From Dyella sp. SG609 (lineage in GTDB: Bacteria; Pseudomonadota; Gammaproteobacteria; Xanthomonadales; Rhodanobacteraceae), in the NCBI RefSeq assembly GCF_012275375.1, contig NZ_JAAZQJ010000003.1, positions 124,001 through 188,000 on the forward strand: a stretch of 64,000 bases of DNA, given 5' to 3'. Below the pieces are notes generated by a model, which did no database searches, was not told the DNA's origin, and worked only from the letters and a program-made list of their open reading frames with translations. Both the position numbers and the translations under genes were made by a program. Positions 19,634 through 59,228 of this stretch are shown piece by piece (the first letter of the stretch is position 1; the number at the start of each line of letters is the position of its first letter).

Positions 19634-19663
19634 TTGGAATGCGGTGCGGCGCCCGGCGATAAT
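19634..19663 (+). promoter_or_regulatory. Putative sigma70 promoter of gcvT
   Basis: TTGGAA (19634-19639) and GATAAT (19658-19663) are 18 bp apart and would start transcription about 20 bases before gcvT, leaving no room for a glycine riboswitch downstream. The 192-bp gap also holds a single GGACGTCC at 19583-19590. Confidence 0.5.
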
Positions 19664-19688
19664 GCGGCTTTTCCCCAGGCGCATTCCG

Positions 19689-20789
19689 ATGACCGAGAAG
19701 ACCGTACTCAATGCCACCCACCGCGCGCTCGGCGCGCGCATGGTCGATTTCGGCGGCTGGGACATGCCCATCAACTACGGCTCGCAGATCGAGGAGCACC
19801 ACGCGGTGCGCCAGGACGCCGGCATGTTCGACGTCTCGCACATGACCGTGGTCGACCTGCACGGCGCGCGCACCCGGGAGTTCCTGCGCCACCTGCTGGC
19901 CAACAACGTCGACAAGCTGAAGGTGCAGGGCAAGGCGCTGTACTCCTGCATGCTGGACGAGCAGGGCGGGGTGATCGACGACCTGATCGTGTATTTCTTC
20001 GACGACGCGCACTTCCGCCTGGTGGTGAACGCCGCCACCCGCGCCAAGGACCTGGCCTGGATCGAGCAGCAGGCCAAGGCCTTCGCCGTCGAGGTGAAGG
20101 AGCGGCCGGACTTCTCCATGATCGCCGTGCAGGGTCCGAACGCCCGCGACAAGACGATCGGCCTGCTGCACGAGGTGGACCGCGAGCGCATCCGCAAGCT
20201 CGGCAAGTTCGTCGCCGCCGCGGCGCAGGGTCCGCACGGCATGCCGCTGTTCATCGCCCGCACCGGCTACACCGGCGAGGACGGCTTCGAGATCCTGGTG
20301 CCGGAAGACCACGCCGTCGCGCTGTGGGAGGCACTGGCGGCGGCCGGCGTGAAGCCGGCGGGCCTCGGCGCGCGCGACACGCTGCGGCTGGAAGCCGGCA
20401 TGAACCTCTACGGCCAGGACATGGACGAGACCGTCAGCCCCTGGGAAGCCAACCTCGGCTGGACCATCGCACTGGACGAAGGCCGCGACTTCATCGGCCG
20501 CAAGGCGCTGGAAGCGCAGAAGGCCGCCGGCGTGAAGCGCGTGATGGTCGGCCTGGTGCTGGACGAGAAGGGCGTGCTGCGCCACGGCCAGAAGGTGCTC
20601 ACCGCCAACGGCGAGGGCGAGATCCTGTCCGGCAGCTTCGCGCCGACGCTCAACAAGGCGGTGGCGTTCGCGCGCATTCCGGCCGGCGATCCTGGCGAGG
20701 TGCGGGTGGACATCCGCGGCCGCGAGGTGCCGGTGCGCGTGGTGAAGTACCCGTTCGTGCGCGACGGCAAGCCCTGCGAAGGCATCTGA
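19689..20789 (+). CDS. gcvT: Glycine cleavage system T protein (aminomethyltransferase)
   Basis: The 366-residue T protein transfers the aminomethyl carbon from lipoylated H protein to tetrahydrofolate, releasing ammonia. Landmarks are [21 protein letters not shown] at the start (folate pocket), MFDVSHM, the [16 protein letters not shown] motif near 195 and [25 protein letters not shown]. The start is ATG 19689; an upstream in-frame ATG at 19644 lies in the promoter. gcvH follows after 104 bp, while gcvP is not in this window. Confidence 0.97.
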
Positions 20790-20893: not shown

Positions 20894-21289
20894 ATGAGCG
20901 AGATTCCCGGCGATCTGAAATTCCTCAAGTCCCACGAGTGGGCTCGCGCCGAAGACAACGGCAACGTCCGCGTGGGCATCTCCGACCATGCCCAGGGCCA
21001 GCTCGGCGACGTGGTGTACGTGGAGCTGCCCGAAGTCGGCGCCAGCGTGCAGGTCGGCCACGGCGTGGCGACGGTGGAATCGGTCAAGGCCGCTTCCGAC
21101 ATCTACACGCCGGTGTCCGGCGAGATCGTCGAGGTCAACGAGGCGCTGGCCGACTCGCCCGAGACCATCAACGAAGACGCCTATGGCGAAGGCTGGCTGT
21201 TCGTGGTGAAGCCGAGCGATCGCGCCGAGCTCAACGAACTGCTCGACGCCGACGCGTATGCCGAGCAGCTGGAGAACGAAGACCACTGA
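20894..21289 (+). CDS. gcvH: Glycine cleavage system H protein (lipoyl carrier)
   Basis: The 131-residue H protein begins [16 protein letters not shown] and has the lipoylation motif [20 protein letters not shown], in which the lysine of ESVKA carries lipoate. The C-terminal [12 protein letters not shown] matches the family. It shuttles the aminomethyl group between the P and T proteins. It is followed by a strong terminator. Confidence 0.98.
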
Positions 21290-21345: not shown

Positions 21346-21794
21346 GTGAGGCGGCTCGCGCGAGAAGCTCGATCGAGGAGCTCGACGGAGCCGGTCGCGG
21401 GGGGATGGCGGCCCTCGGGCGGGTCGGAAGGGTCGCCGAGGGGCCTCCGGTCGAAATTCGTTCATCCACCCGAAAACACCCCCGCGAGGGGTCTAAGCCC
21501 TTGCTCGCCAAGGGGTTAGGCGTTCAGCTTGATTGGCTCACGCGATTATGAGCGAGTGGCGCGGAATAGCGCGTTTTATGCGGGATTTAGGCCGGTTTTT
21601 GATTTTTTCCGATTTTCTCGTATGGCCGTATGGACGTCCAAACGGATAATCCATTCCGGACCCGCGGAGCCTTGTGGGACGGGGCTTCCGGGGTGGATGC
21701 GGCAGGTCGGCCGGATTGAATTCCCGGTTGAAATCAATTGACAGCCGAAATAATCGGGAATAGTTTTCGCACCAGATAACGGGGAACAGGCGTT
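21346..21794 (+). promoter_or_regulatory. AT-richer upstream region of metJ with two met-box-like 8-mers and two candidate promoters
   Basis: No gene is visible between the gcvH terminator and the MetJ-like gene. The second half is clearly richer in A+T than its surroundings. Adjacent 8-mers GGACGTCC (21632-21639) and AAACGGAT (21640-21647) resemble the MetJ operator consensus AGACGTCT. Candidate promoters are TTGAAA (21728) -17- TAATCG (21751) and TTGACA (21738) -17- TAGTTT (21761). A small hairpin, CCCTTG-CTCGC-CAAGGG, lies at 21498-21514. The met-box-like pair is about 90 bp above the better promoters, so repression from there would need looping or an unrecognised upstream promoter; GATAAT at 21645 overlaps the boxes but has no good -35. 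Confidence 0.45.
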
Positions 21795-22349
21795 ATGGCA
21801 CCATCGAAGTTCATCAAGCCGTATGTGGAACACGGCGAGAAAGCCGGAGCGGTACGCAAGATCACCGTCTCCATTCCGGTCCACGTTTTGCGGCTGCTGT
21901 CGGACGAACGTACCCGTCGTCAAGTGAACAATTTAAGGCACGCCACCAACAGCGATCTGCTGGTTGAGGCGTTCCTACATGCTTTTACTGGGCAACCACT
22001 GCCAACTGATGAGGAGCTGAGACGAACTATGGCCACTGCCAAGAAAGCTGCGAAGAAACCGGCCGCCAAGAAGGCTGCCAAGAAGACCACCGCGAAGAAG
22101 GCCGCTACCAAGCGTCCGGTCGCGAAGAAGCCGGCCGCCAAGAAGGCCGTCAAGAAGACTGCGAAGAAGGCTGCCGCGCGCAAGCGTCCGGCTGCTGCCA
22201 AGAAGGCGTCCGTCAAGAAGGTCGCCGTGAAGAAGGTTGCCAAGAAGGCCGCCAAGAAGGTTGCCAAGAAGCGCACCGTGAAGAAGGCTGCCGCTGCCAA
22301 GGTGGTCAAGGCCACCAAGACGGCCAAGCCCAAGGCTGCCAAGAAGTAA
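21795..22349 (+). CDS. metJ: MetJ-family methionine repressor with a histone H1-like Ala/Lys-rich C-terminal tail
   Basis: Residues about 8-76 read as a MetJ ribbon-helix-helix repressor: [53 protein letters not shown]. As I recall E. coli MetJ, this core is nearly identical. The usual C-terminal ~30 residues are replaced by about 105 residues of AAKK-type repeats ([29 protein letters not shown]), like the DNA-compacting tails of histone H1-like, HC2 or AlgP proteins. MetJ binds tandem 8-bp met boxes with SAM as corepressor; the tail would add strong non-specific DNA affinity. The two parts share one frame with no stop. An in-frame ATG at 22029, 12 bases after GAGGAG, could also yield the tail alone. 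Confidence 0.9.
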
Positions 22350-22381
22350 GCACGACTAAAAAAGCTTTACCTCGATTTTCT

Positions 22382-22407
22382 CTCCCTGCGGTGCCCAGCG
22401 CAGGGAG
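22382..22407. terminator. Hairpin downstream of metJ
   Basis: CTCCCTGCG-GTGCCCAG-CGCAGGGAG is a perfect 9-bp stem 32 bp after the stop. It lacks a T run, so it may stabilise the 3' end rather than terminate. Confidence 0.45.
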
Positions 22408-22427
22408 GGGCACTTCGAAAAAGTTTT

Positions 22428-22460
22428 CGTCCCGGCCTTCGTGCCGGGACGCTTCGTTTC
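22428..22460 (+). terminator. Second hairpin downstream of metJ, terminator-like
   Basis: CGTCCCGGC-CTTCGT-GCCGGGACG is a perfect 9-bp stem followed by CTTCGTTTC. The remaining ~240 bp up to the next gene hold one GGACGTCC (22501-22508) and no convincing gene. Confidence 0.5.
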
Positions 22461-55618: not shown

Positions 55619-55634
55619 AGACGTTTAGACGGCC
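55619..55634. promoter_or_regulatory. Two adjacent met-box-like 8-mers (putative MetJ operator)
   Basis: AGACGTTT (55619-55626) and AGACGGCC (55627-55634) are adjacent near-matches to the MetJ box AGACGTCT and end six bases before the -35 of the met operon promoter. MetJ binds such 8-mers cooperatively in tandem. The pair GGACGTCC-AAACGGAT upstream of the metJ gene has the same pattern. Confidence 0.6.
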
Positions 55635-55640
55635 AAACTA

Positions 55641-55670
55641 TTGACACGGCCGAGCGGGCGCCGATACAGT
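55641..55670 (+). promoter_or_regulatory. Promoter of the metX-metB-hom operon
   Basis: Perfect -35 TTGACA (55641-55646) and -10 TACAGT (55665-55670) with 18-bp spacing. Transcription would begin at about 55677, right at the 5' edge of the riboswitch. Confidence 0.8.
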
Positions 55671-55676
55671 CCGCAT

Positions 55677-55792
55677 CACTCATCGAGACCGGCTGAGGGA
55701 CAGGCCCTTTGAAGCCGGGGCAACCTGCGGGATTTCCCGCCACGGTGCCAACTCCTGCGGAGGCGCAATCAGGCGCCGCCGAGAGATGGGCG
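55677..55792 (+). ncRNA. SAM-I (S-box) riboswitch aptamer
   Basis: The leader has the conserved S-box core: GAGGGACAGGCCC, TTTGAAGCCGGGGCAACC and GGTGCCAACTCCTGC. P1 is closed by CTCATC (55679-55684) and GATGGG (55785-55790). It binds S-adenosylmethionine in the nascent RNA. No intrinsic terminator follows, so control is probably translational through the expression platform at 55781-55867. Confidence 0.95.
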
Positions 55793-55867
55793 AGCTTCGT
55801 GCCGGCACTCATGCCGGCGGCGTGGCGACCTCTCTCCGATCCGCAGGGCGATGCCCGAACCGGAGAG
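55781..55867 (+). promoter_or_regulatory. Translational expression platform of the SAM-I riboswitch
   Basis: CTCTCCG (55832-55838) is exactly complementary to CGGAGAG (55861-55867), the metX Shine-Dalgarno sequence. TCTCTC (55831-55836) is also complementary to GAGAGA (55781-55786), which overlaps the 3' strand of P1. With SAM, P1 forms and the anti-SD blocks metX; without SAM, GAGAGA takes the anti-SD and frees the ribosome site. A GCCGGC-ACTCAT-GCCGGC hairpin (55801-55818) lies between. Confidence 0.8.
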
Positions 55868-55871
55868 CGAG

Positions 55872-56891
55872 ATGTCCAGCCAGCCCCAGCCCGTCACCAG
55901 CGCCACTGCCCCCTGTACCCAGGCGGGCGTTGTCCGCGCGGACCTCACGACGCAGCGCAGCTCCCGCCGCATCCGTCTCTCGCCCAAGTACGGCAGCCGT
56001 CCCTGCGAAGTCGACGTGCGCTACCTGTGGTGCGGCGCGCCGGACGCGCCCACCGTGATCGTGCAGGGCGGCATCTCCGCCAACCGCGACGTGGTGGCGC
56101 TGGACGACGAAGCCGCCCCCGGCTGGTGGCAGGAAGCCGTCGGCGCCGGCCGCCCGATCGACCTCGACCGCTACCGCGTGCTGTGCATCGACTGGCTGAC
56201 CCCGGCCGAACTCGATGGCGCCACCGCCGTCTCCAGCGAAGACCAGGCCGACGCCCTGGCCGCCTTGGTCGAGGCGCTGGGCATCGTGCGCGTGCATGCC
56301 TTCATCGGTTCTTCCTACGGCGCCATGGCCGGCCTGGCCTTCGCCGCGCGCCACCCCTATGCGCTGGACCGCCTGGTGCTGCTGGCCGGCGCGCACCGCC
56401 CGCATCCGCTGGCCACCGCGCAGCGCGCCGTGCAGCGCGGCATCGTGCGGCTGGGCCTGGAGACCGGGCAGCCGGAGCAGGCGCTGTCGCTGGCGCGCCA
56501 GCTGGCCATGACCACCTACCGCGGCAGCGAGGAGTTCTCGCGCCGTTTCACCGCCGCGCCGGAATTCCGCGAAGGGCGCTTCCATTTCCCGGTCGAGGAC
56601 TACCTGGTGCACCAGGGCCGCCGCTTCGTCGAGCGTTTCGACGTGGAGCGCTTCCTCGCCCTGTCCGAATCGATCGACCTGCACGACGTGACGCCGGAGC
56701 GCATCGCCGCGCCCGCCACGCTGATCGGTTTTCCGTCCGATCGCCTGGTGCCGCTGTCGGACCTGTGCGAACTGCAGCGCCGCCTGCATGGCCCGGCCAC
56801 GCTCGAGGTGCTCGAGTCGCCGTACGGCCACGACGCCTTCCTCAAGGAAACCCATCGCCTCGCGCCGCTGCTGCGCGAAGCGCTGGCCTGA
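55872..56891 (+). CDS. metX: MetX-family homoserine O-acyltransferase (acyl donor not assigned)
   Basis: The 339-residue alpha/beta-hydrolase-fold acyltransferase should make O-acetyl- or O-succinyl-homoserine for MetB. Seen: oxyanion region VIVQGGISANRDV, nucleophile elbow FIGSSYGAMAGLAF (instead of the usual GGSMGGM), acid in IGFPSDRLVPLSDL and His in SPYGHDAFLKE. Xanthomonadales MetX-like proteins are reported to include succinyl-CoA users and serine acyltransferases, so donor and acceptor need testing; the neighbours metB and hom favour homoserine. ATG 55872 follows GGAGAG, the ribosome site controlled by the riboswitch; the longer start at 55851 would bypass it. Confidence 0.88.
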   Translation: MSSQPQPVTSATAPCTQAGVVRADLTTQRSSRRIRLSPKYGSRPCEVDVRYLWCGAPDAPTVIVQGGISANRDVVALDDEAAPGWWQEAVGAGRPIDLDRYRVLCIDWLTPAELDGATAVSSEDQADALAALVEALGIVRVHAFIGSSYGAMAGLAFAARHPYALDRLVLLAGAHRPHPLATAQRAVQRGIVRLGLETGQPEQALSLARQLAMTTYRGSEEFSRRFTAAPEFREGRFHFPVEDYLVHQGRRFVERFDVERFLALSESIDLHDVTPERIAAPATLIGFPSDRLVPLSDLCELQRRLHGPATLEVLESPYGHDAFLKETHRLAPLLREALA

Positions 56892-56943
56892 ACCCATTCG
56901 TCCCCACGCCCTTGCGCACCAGCAACAAGAAACGGAGATCACC

Positions 56944-58143
56944 ATGAGCGACACCACCGCCCCCTGTAGCACCAGCACCTGCGCGGTGCGCGCCGGCATC
57001 GAGTCGGACACCCAGCACGGCGCGGTGGTGCCGCCGCTGCACCTGTCGACCAACTACGCCTTCGAAGGCCTGGGCGGCAAGCGCGCCTACGACTACTCGC
57101 GCAGCGGCAACCCCACGCGCGACCTGCTCGGCAATGCGCTGGCCGAACTGGAACAGGGCGCGGGCGCGGTGGTGACGGCCAGCGGCATGGCGGCGGTGGC
57201 GCTGGCGCTGGAACTGGTGCCGGCGGGCGGCCGCGTGCTGGCCGCGCACGACTGCTACGGCGGCACCTGGCGCCTGCTCGACGCCTGGGCCAAGAAGGGC
57301 CGCTTCACGCTCGACTTCGTCGACCTCACCGACAGCGTGGCGCTGGCCGCCGGCCTGGCCGGCAAGCCTTCGCTGGTGTGGGTGGAGACGCCGTCCAACC
57401 CGCTGCTGCGCATCACCGACATCCGCCACGTGGCACAGGCCGCGCATGCCGCCGGTGCGCTGGTGGTGGTGGACAACACCTTCCTCTCGCCCGCGCTGCA
57501 GCAGCCGCTGGTGCTGGGCGCGGACGTGGTGGTGCATTCCACCACCAAGTACATCAATGGCCACAGCGACGTGGTGGGCGGCGCGGTGATCGCGCGCGAC
57601 CAGGCGGTGGCCGACCAGCTGAAGTGGTGGGGCAACTGCAATGGCCTGACCGGCGCGCCGTTCGACAGCTTCCTCACCCTGCGCGGCCTGCGCACGCTGA
57701 GCGTGCGCCTGCGCCAGCATCAGGAAAACGCGCAGCGCATCGCCGACCTGCTCGACGGCCATGCCGCCGTGCGCAAGGTCTACTACCCGGGCCTGGACAG
57801 CCACTCCGGCCACGCCCTGGCCGCGCGCCAGCAAGCCGGCTTCGGCGCCATGCTGAGCTTCGAGCTGGAAGGCGAGGTGGCGCAGATCGAAGCCTTCGTC
57901 AACGAGCTGCAGTATTTCTCGCTGGCCGAATCGCTGGGGGGCGTGGAAAGCCTGATCGCGCACCCGGCCTCCATGACCCATGCCTCGATGGCGCCGGAAG
58001 CACGCCGCACCGCCGGCATCGCCGACAGCCTGCTGCGCATCTCGGTGGGCATCGAGGACGGCGACGACCTGGTGCGCGACATCGACGCCGCCCTGGGCCG
58101 TGCGTTCGCCTCGCTGGCCAACAAACGCCGGGTGACCGCATGA
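56944..58143 (+). CDS. metB: Cystathionine gamma-synthase (Cys/Met metabolism PLP enzyme)
   Basis: The 399-residue PLP enzyme condenses O-acyl-homoserine with cysteine to cystathionine. Signature elements are DYSRSGNPTRDLL, SGMAAVALALELV, VETPSNPLLRITDI, VVDNTFLSPALQQPL and the PLP lysine in HSTTKYINGHSDVVGG. MetB, MetC and MetZ are hard to separate by eye; the operon context with metX and hom supports MetB or an O-acyl-homoserine sulfhydrylase. ATG 56944 has GGAG upstream. Its stop overlaps hom (ATGA). Confidence 0.92.
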   Translation: MSDTTAPCSTSTCAVRAGIESDTQHGAVVPPLHLSTNYAFEGLGGKRAYDYSRSGNPTRDLLGNALAELEQGAGAVVTASGMAAVALALELVPAGGRVLAAHDCYGGTWRLLDAWAKKGRFTLDFVDLTDSVALAAGLAGKPSLVWVETPSNPLLRITDIRHVAQAAHAAGALVVVDNTFLSPALQQPLVLGADVVVHSTTKYINGHSDVVGGAVIARDQAVADQLKWWGNCNGLTGAPFDSFLTLRGLRTLSVRLRQHQENAQRIADLLDGHAAVRKVYYPGLDSHSGHALAARQQAGFGAMLSFELEGEVAQIEAFVNELQYFSLAESLGGVESLIAHPASMTHASMAPEARRTAGIADSLLRISVGIEDGDDLVRDIDAALGRAFASLANKRRVTA

Positions 58144-59228
58144 GCGCGGTGCTGGCGGAAGCGGACGTCCGGACGTCCAAGCCCGCCGCGGCCGCCAGCG
58201 GCACGGCCATCGTGCTGCTCGGCACCGGCGTGGTCGGCGGCGCGCTGCTCAAGCTGCTCAATACCCCGGCCGCCGCTTCGCTACGCCTGGTGGCCGCGGC
58301 GAACTCGCGCCGCCAGCAGACCGATTCCCAGCAACTGGCCGACCGCGCCCTGCGCGAGAAGCTCAAGAGCCATGGCGAGCCGCGCGACGACGCAGCCCTG
58401 CTGCGCGCGCTGGACGGCAGCGGCGCGGCGGTGAAAGTCATCATCGACGCCACCGCCAACGCCAGCCTTGCCGCACGCCACGCCGACTGGCTGGCGCGCG
58501 GCTATCACGTGGTCACCGCCAACAAGGCGCTGGCCGGCGGCGAGCTGCCCGGCTGGCGCGCGCTGCAGGCAGCGATAGCCGAAGGCGGCCGCTATGGCGA
58601 CTCCGCCACGGTGGGCGCCGGCCTGCCGGTGCTGTCCACCCTGCGCCGCCTGCGCGGCTGCGGCGATGCGCTGCTCACGCTGGAAGGCGTGTTCTCCGGT
58701 TCGCTGTCCTACCTGTTCAACCAGTACGACGGCAGCCAGCCGTTCTCCGCGCTGCTGCGCGAGGCGCGCAAGCTGGGCTATACCGAACCCGATCCGCGTT
58801 CCGATCTTTCCGGCGAAGACGTGGCGCGCAAGCTGCTGATCATCGCGCGCAATGCGGGCTTTGCGCTGGGCACCGACGAAGTGGACGTCGAAAGCCTGGT
58901 GCCCGAGGCGTTGCGCAACGTCGACACCGACACCTTCCTCGCCCGCCTGGAAGAACTCGACGAACCGCTGGCGCGCCGCCATGCCGAGGCGAAGGCGCGC
59001 GGCGGCGTGCTGCGTTTCCTGGCGCGGCTCAACCAGCGCGGCAAGGCGCGCGTCGGCCTGGTCGAAGTACCGGCGACGCACCCAGCGGCGCGGCTGTACG
59101 GCACGGACAACCAGTTCGCCCTCACCACCACGCGCTACCACTCGCAGCCGCTGGTGATCCAGGGGCCGGGCGCGGGGCCGGAGGTGACGGCGCAGGCGTT
59201 GTTGGGTGATGTGCTGGCCCTCGCCTGA
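58140..59228 (+). CDS. hom: Homoserine dehydrogenase without ACT regulatory domain
   Basis: The 362-residue protein matches the C-terminal catalytic half of ThrA/MetL: NAD(P) fold AIVLLGTGVVGGALLKLL, VVTANKALAGG, catalytic-domain ATVGAGLPVLSTLRRL, LEGVFSGSLSYLFNQYDG and YTEPDPRSDLSGEDVARKLL. It reduces aspartate semialdehyde to homoserine, the substrate of MetX. It lacks both an aspartokinase domain and the C-terminal ACT domain of typical stand-alone Hom proteins, so threonine feedback is not expected. It is coupled to metB by a four-base overlap; the codons near its start contain GGACGTCC twice in tandem (58163-58178). Confidence 0.93.
   Translation: MSAVLAEADVRTSKPAAAASGTAIVLLGTGVVGGALLKLLNTPAAASLRLVAAANSRRQQTDSQQLADRALREKLKSHGEPRDDAALLRALDGSGAAVKVIIDATANASLAARHADWLARGYHVVTANKALAGGELPGWRALQAAIAEGGRYGDSATVGAGLPVLSTLRRLRGCGDALLTLEGVFSGSLSYLFNQYDGSQPFSALLREARKLGYTEPDPRSDLSGEDVARKLLIIARNAGFALGTDEVDVESLVPEALRNVDTDTFLARLEELDEPLARRHAEAKARGGVLRFLARLNQRGKARVGLVEVPATHPAARLYGTDNQFALTTTRYHSQPLVIQGPGAGPEVTAQALLGDVLALA

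Follow-up and report, generated by a model that had tools for sequence, protein, structure and literature searches.

In E. coli, metJ carries tandem Met boxes before its own gene, and CheA (with its long and short forms) and IF2 are familiar cases in which two products are made from one frame by internal initiation. The Met-box consensus is given as AGACGTCT in the available portion of the survey of Leyn et al. (2014, PMC4239095), which found MetJ to be absent from the four Xanthomonadales genomes surveyed; a paper on the MetJ regulon (PMC3228920) makes, in its available portion, no mention of Xanthomonas, Stenotrophomonas or Xylella. Among tailed DNA-binding proteins, AlgP of Pseudomonas aeruginosa and PhaF possess a Lys/Ala/Pro repeat region that has been likened to histone H1 and for which DNA tethering has been proposed (PMC9239181), and mycobacterial HupB is a DNA-binding protein with an indispensable eukaryote-like tail (PMC5676037). 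As far as the available parts of these two sources go, AlgP and HupB are the nearest tailed proteins that we have found. A 'Histone H1' of 156 aa, XC_1234, is recorded for Xanthomonas campestris in the available portion of PMC8578834, and its link to the gene behind gcvH discussed below is putative.

The locus reported here, from Dyella sp. SG609, is an open reading frame of 184 codons at 21795..22349 (+) of the window (the whole stretch of 64,000 nucleotides that was analysed), starting with ATG at 21795, ending with TAA at 22347-22349 and free of internal stops. It is composed of a MetJ core (codons 1-77, 21795..22025, +, ending in ...PTDEELRR) and an H1-like tail. The core resembles E. coli MetJ (PF01340, 1cma), its residues 5-84 aligning to residues 6-85 of 1cma, but the last ~20 residues of the E. 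coli protein are here replaced by the tail, and the 3' codons appear to double as the leader of another gene. In CheA and IF2, the short form truncates one protein, whereas here the short form looks like an originally separate gene. The N-terminal domain of AlgP and PhaF is, in contrast, alpha-helical and not MetJ, and a nested start is not mentioned in the available part of PMC9239181, while HupB is a general nucleoid protein of the HU family, and not an operator-specific metabolic repressor, according to the part of PMC5676037 available. The first-pass annotation had held such a fusion to be undescribed, which agrees with our own search of the open-licence literature: among the matches listed, neither a MetJ-H1 fusion nor the nested arrangement is described.

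The identity of the core relies on profile matches, on a structure match and on its relatives. Residues 5-82 match Pfam MetJ PF01340 with 126.9 bits (cut-off 25, E 3e-37) and residues 5-85 match NCBIfam MetJ with 131.7 bits (cut-off 110), both above the curated cut-offs, and the closest solved structure is the E. coli Met repressor 1cma (residues 5-84, E 3.8e-32). The E. coli-type C-terminal segment that follows ...DDADLRKE, i.e. the last ~20 residues, is lacking, and the Pfam match ends at profile position 82/97, in agreement with the earlier claim that the usual MetJ C-terminus is gone. Judged by homology, the core is nonetheless a MetJ despite its missing C-terminus, and the MetJ proteins of three other families (f8, f9 and f12, see below) are short too. 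A genome search finds this single MetJ in the Dyella genome, with no second copy.

Counted from Met79, the Lys/Ala-rich tail has 106 aa, and the net charge summed over the 107 residues past the core is +45. Its profile scores stay below the HC2/H1-like family cut-offs (21.8 bits versus 40 for PF07382, 17.7 versus 80 for NF038053), and in the latter, sub-cut-off match, position 1 of NF038053 aligns to residue 79. We therefore name the tail H1-like as judged from its composition and synteny, and not as a member of a profile family. HC2 and NF038053 searches are noisy on such simple sequence, and the many matches that they place on ~850-aa or antisense frames were disregarded. Many genomes of the order, and G000 at C5:362465-362674, have K/A-rich stretches within frames of ~850 aa, which are perhaps tails of DNA topoisomerase I. 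The synteny markers upstream of the fused frame are a gcvT-like gene (19644..20789, +) and gcvH, for the glycine cleavage H protein (20894..21289, +), which we take to be such from sequence recognition.

To describe the distribution of the fusion, 135 loci were examined, 55 of them from genomes of family f1 (the Dyella genome included) and 80 on named contigs found by similarity; the latter belong to Dyella, Luteibacter, Frateuria, Rhodanobacter, Tahibacter, Dokdonella and others, with many MAGs, and the named loci identify f1 as the Rhodanobacteraceae. As the same genome is present twice for some loci, the distinct tailed proteins number 117. The tail is in frame in 130 of the 135 loci, the other five (L023, L063, L065, L102 and L108) being cut by contig ends. 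From Met79 onwards, it comprises 35-309 residues, with a median of 99 over the 114 complete tails, and the median net charge is +40. The first-pass annotation had described a MetJ core running in frame into a Lys/Ala tail, and had proposed to look for such tails among MetJ relatives: its coordinates prove exact and the tail is found in frame in these 130 loci, throughout the Rhodanobacteraceae. A sequencing error hiding a stop near 22020, which it had listed among the possible refutations, is excluded because 130 loci carry the tail in the same frame.

MetJ itself is matched in 227 of the 233 f1 genomes, and in 190 of the 192 of good quality, figures that concern the presence of MetJ, tails having been read in a subset; PF01340 is above its cut-off in 226/233. 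Order-wide, MetJ is matched in 145 out of 398 genomes, namely, when split by hand, 125 in f1, 1 in f8, 13 in f9, 6 in f12 and 0 in f2. In f8, f9 and f12, MetJ has 79-97 aa and is tail-less (16 loci), and no K-rich ORF was found in the 1.5-3.2 kb around the gene at these 16 loci. Family f2 is probably the Xanthomonadaceae and, we infer, close kin of f1. That f2 is MetJ-less fits the absence of MetJ reported in the available portion of PMC4239095, and MetJ is now placed in an order where this four-genome survey had found none.

The 3' end of metJ is conserved in an unusual manner. Codons 63-77 (21981..22025, +) form a frozen segment, predicted to be the leader of an internal gene and characterized by silent-site conservation, rare codons and low GC3. 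On a tree of 103 representatives, third positions changed 2.8 times per codon in this segment versus 17.1 times elsewhere (p 3e-8). Against the 31 other codons that have no more than 2 first- and second-position changes, the figures are 2.8 versus 16.8 (p 4e-7). Because codons 63-77 were picked once the conservation had been viewed, neither p-value comes from blind testing; the magnitude of the difference holds regardless of this post hoc choice. The silent-site freeze is absent in the 16 tail-less MetJ genes. GC3 is 0.29 over codons 62-78, compared to 0.69 over codons 1-61 and 0.90 in the 37 confident CDS of the window; as the whole metJ is low in GC3 for this genome, already over codons 1-61, the segment's low value is in part a property of the gene. 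Several of the rarest synonyms are used there (share in window CDS: ACT 1.7%, AGA 0.5%, CGA 1.5%, CCA 3.2%), as well as GCT, together with the common codons CTG and GAG. At codon 68, which encodes P, Q, T, K or S depending on the locus, 132/133 loci have A as third base.

The segment contains two blocks, block A, ACTGGGC (21987..21993, +), whose pattern is shared with f2 leaders, and block B, ACTGATGAGGAG (22005..22016, +), which holds a Shine-Dalgarno-like GAGGAG at 22011-22016. Behind them, an internal H1-like ORF of 106 aa would start at Met79 (22029..22349, +), which is where the NF038053 alignment begins and where the stand-alone counterparts behind gcvTH in f2 and f3 start. Among the 117 distinct proteins, Met79 is encoded by ATG in 116 and by GTG in one, and it is followed by Ala in 116, while the residue before it is variable (T, D, I, A, V or none). 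GAGGAG is found upstream of the Met79 codon in 116/117, at a distance of 12 nt (105) or 9 nt (11). Computed anti-SD pairing amounts to -8.6 kcal/mol at Met79, a value attained by 2/312 internal ATGs and by 0/37 naive starts of window CDS, the naive starts being longest-ATG guesses; for metJ's own start, it is -5.7 kcal/mol. The 35-nt fold around the internal ATG is less stable than that of the core (-4.1 vs -6.5 kcal/mol), in part a simple consequence of the A/T richness of these codons. An unusually long SD-ATG distance (12 nt) counts against an internal start. Moreover, GAGGAG alone needs no 45 frozen bases, and the leader would have some further role.

A single locus, L132 (genome G236), has a GTG junction, and its leader is recoded with GC-rich codons; it keeps the fusion without the leader, which is thus not indispensable. 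The proposal made from the first reading, that of a fusion acting as one protein, holds as regards the frame, which is kept open, but it had overlooked the separate H1-like start inside metJ, and a second product is likely.

Stand-alone genes resembling the tail are present in genomes without a metJ match. In 7 of 12 gcvH loci outside f1, an H1-like gene whose start matches Met79 lies behind gcvT-gcvH, that is, in 6/7 loci of f2 (L212, L213, L216, L217, L219 and L221; not L218, by filter) and in 1/1 of f3 (L210); at the loci of f4, f10, f12 and f9, there is none behind gcvH (0/4; L214, L222 and L223 by filter, L224 by ORF listing). The tail ORF and the f2 gene have in common their place behind gcvH, an M-A-x-K-K start and a bipartite leader, as expected of counterparts. 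More generally, the f2 and f3 genes share with the tail ORF its synteny and an M-A-x-K-K or M-A-x-x-K start, with the bipartite leader in f2, but they are unfused. They encode 120-184 aa, except for L221 (79), and an in-frame stop precedes the ATG in 36/37 f2 loci, none being seen in L286.

The f2 leaders hold the metJ blocks ACTGGGC and ACTGACGAGGA, 11-39 nt apart. When the strict pattern ACTGGGC...ACTGAYGAGGA...ATGGC was searched in the 398 genomes, it was found once per genome in 185 of them, and the counts by family, made by hand, are 114/125 in f1, 71/128 in f2 and 0/145 in the other ten families; the reversed-pattern control gave 0/398. The absence of the strict pattern from 57/128 f2 and 11/125 f1 genomes counts against a general association. 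A K/A-rich ORF follows the leader in all 31 f2 loci fetched for the pattern, and 6 of the 7 K/A-rich ORFs found by synteny alone have the leader, the seventh, L210 (f3), having a variant missed by the pattern. A GC-rich hairpin-like stretch, GCGGGTCCGANNCCCGC, was also noticed by eye ~40-80 nt upstream of block A in many f2 loci (e.g. L279-L285), at a place where f1 has metJ codons.

The upstream region of metJ was considered with respect to the MetJ part of the protein. Three tandem Met-box-like octamers, GGCCGTAT GGACGTCC AAACGGAT (21624..21647, +), constitute a predicted metJ operator matching 16/24 consensus positions; their score is reached by 0/50 shuffles, and they correspond to the genome match C3:145624-145639. 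Over 135 upstream regions (119 f1-type and 16 tail-less), the best three-box score has a mean of 15.7 vs 12.1 after shuffling. In 104 of the 119 f1-type regions, at most 7/50 shuffles reach the score, and the upstream boxes to be expected of a MetJ are thereby found; 103 of these 104 well-scoring sites lie at -164 to -192. The 15 regions without standout Met boxes (at least 15 shuffles reach their score) are from Luteibacter or g9 in 8 cases, and otherwise Dyella-like or from g7. From its sequence, the core looks like a working MetJ and, in line with established MetJ biology, it would repress this locus and met genes in a SAM-dependent manner. In one Luteibacter MAG (L086, identical to L147), a nonsense codon interrupts the metJ core while leader and tail are intact, which fits an independent use of the inner gene; a MAG error could also explain this codon.

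Met-box-like sites are also present elsewhere in the genome. A two-box, family-style pattern with 1 mismatch gives 14 forward and 14 reverse matches at 16 places in the Dyella genome versus 0 and 0 for the reversed control, with the limits that the pattern was chosen after the boxes were viewed and that the reversed control is mismatched to the CpG-rich GACGTC. With the E. coli Met-box consensus and 3 mismatches, the excess is only twofold (15 and 15 vs 7 and 7 in the control); the family-style pattern performs better in 5 of 6 genomes, the counts in G110 being 2 and 2 vs 1 and 0. Three candidate sites are at places plausible for a MetJ regulon: one is located between cysG (above cut-off) and a gene for a CysB-family regulator (below cut-offs), another precedes a gene for a TonB-dependent receptor, best named as a B12 receptor (far below cut-off), and a third, in G110, lies before metX (above cut-off). 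Further matches lie inside genes or by genes without evident link. In the window, the candidate at 58163-58178 was rejected as a metB-linked operator, as it falls inside the first codons of a hom-like gene. The region 55619-59228 (+) holds a metX-metB-hom cluster, in which metB is named by NCBIfam and metX and hom are presumed from sequence recognition. A weak Met-box-like pair with 3 mismatches is found there at 55619-55634, the control being half as frequent at that stringency, and a SAM-I riboswitch (55677-55792, RF00162, 80.9 bits) comes directly after it. Double SAM control of metX-metB-hom is possible.

We consider it probable that one reading frame contains two overlapping genes, encoding a tailed MetJ and a free H1-like protein made by internal initiation at 22029. 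The outer gene would encode a MetJ-type repressor, i.e. a SAM-dependent ribbon-helix-helix dimer that binds tandem Met boxes and represses its own promoter, among others. The inner gene would encode, from Met79, an older H1-like DNA-coating protein, and the last 15 metJ codons would have a second role, providing it with an mRNA leader and a ribosome-binding site. Initiation at metJ would thus yield a repressor whose polycationic, presumably disordered tail has sequence-independent affinity for DNA, and initiation at GAGGAG-ATG would yield the free H1-like protein; if both are behind a MetJ-repressed promoter, H1-like synthesis would follow the methionine/SAM state. In the Dyella locus, the codons AGA/CGA at 76-77 are one change from TGA, yet stops between core and tail are seen in 0/130 loci, which argues that the fusion is kept, since a stop before the tail would be harmless if only the free H1-like protein mattered. 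Conversely, the silent-site freeze and the maintained ATG-GCx argue that more than the fusion alone matters. The first-pass annotation had set against its own proposal the case of two separate products only; the evidence rather favours both products, since the fusion frame is also kept open.

It is unlikely that the fusion alone matters, i.e. that the locus encodes a MetJ with a DNA-condensing tail and no start at Met79, the frozen codons being a DNA site, a metJ RNA signal or a slow-translation segment that aids core folding. The open frame of the 130 tailed loci would be expected, rare codons could slow ribosomes ahead of the tail and L132 has a fusion without the leader, but the conservation of ATG-GCx and GAGGAG, as well as the sharing of this leader by free-standing H1-like genes of metJ-less genomes, are left unexplained. 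That only the H1-like protein matters, metJ decaying at a locus kept for its nested gene and the fusion being made but useless, appears very improbable: the MetJ core is strongly conserved, with PF01340 above cut-off in nearly all f1 genomes (226/233), and Met-box-like sites are found upstream of metJ in 104/119 regions, with more elsewhere in the genome, even though the Luteibacter MAG combines a nonsense codon in metJ with an intact tail and leader, Met boxes do not stand out in 15/119 regions and f2 is without metJ.

The origin of the leader has also to be considered. Its blocks spell the MetJ residues TG(Q) and TDEE, and the TGQPLP motif is shared by the MetJ proteins of E. coli, f8, f9 and f12, the loci of the last three families having no K-rich ORF nearby; since the motif thus occurs in tail-less MetJ without an H1-like neighbour, the blocks probably come from metJ codons. 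An opposite order of events, in which H1-like genes had the leader first and metJ, once fused to them, took it over as the code for its C-terminus, is very unlikely. The leader is indeed present in f1 and f2, with a similar, out-of-phase one in f3 (L210), but TGQPLP.. is conserved in the MetJ proteins of E. coli and of f8, f9 and f12, and the DNA read around the genes of these three families has no H1-like gene next to them; this would then be a large coincidence. In addition, the motif is still in phase at L276, a locus of f2. A metJ end turned leader would be simpler than the reverse, and the f2 leader looks like a fossil of the metJ 3' end. When the core was compared by tblastn with 38 f2/f3 loci, L276 gave the one notable match (E 0.068). 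It has an in-phase TGQSEPTDEEL before the H1-like ATG, with a score of 50 compared to a shuffled mean of 27.8 and reached by 0/300 shuffles, in a frame whose stop is 14 codons upstream; the other 12 of the 13 f2/f3 loci scored are not significant (at least 6% of shuffles reach the score), so that the in-phase remnant concerns one locus, chosen after a weak tblastn match.

With regard to the evolution of the two overlapping genes, metJ would have arrived upstream of, and overlapping, the H1-like gene, and f2, in which metJ was presumably lost, would later have kept two blocks of its 3' end as an H1-like leader. We are evenly divided over the whole of this wider proposal, according to which the coding end of metJ was captured as a leader controlling H1-like translation, is still double-coded in the Rhodanobacteraceae and has persisted in a related family from which metJ has gone, while the promoter ties a DNA-coating protein and a tailed repressor to methionine/SAM. 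Should this hold, a bacterial family would encode a chromatin-like protein and a metabolic repressor in one shared frame, and coding sequence would have become an mRNA leader, with the states before and after both alive. It would also offer a direct route to asking whether SAM supply sets nucleoid protein levels, and annotation as a single 'MetJ' protein may hide a second gene.

Other functions were considered for the frozen segment. Rfam gives no match at the leader in the Dyella locus or in 7 f2/f3 loci, and exact matches to the leader in viral contigs number 0. An internal promoter or sigma-54 site was sought by eye only, with no convincing match, and an overlapping +1-frame peptide was rejected, also by eye, its start not being conserved. 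A hammerhead-like core, CUGAUGAG...CGAA, was rejected because both its ends vary across the family. A weak GGCA/TGCC stem appears in many single folds of the leader RNA but, by eye, is not kept in f2 leaders, and the f1 copies are nearly invariant. An apparent second copy in G380 is a contig-end overlap. Metagenome assemblies are broken right at the leader in the five truncated loci listed above and in G380, and probably in G398 and G399, a pattern to be expected where related species contribute near-identical copies that collide during assembly. Finally, just past the stop of the fused frame, positions 22362-22459 (+) give sub-threshold Rfam matches to isrO and anti-hemB, and perhaps form a terminator-like hairpin.
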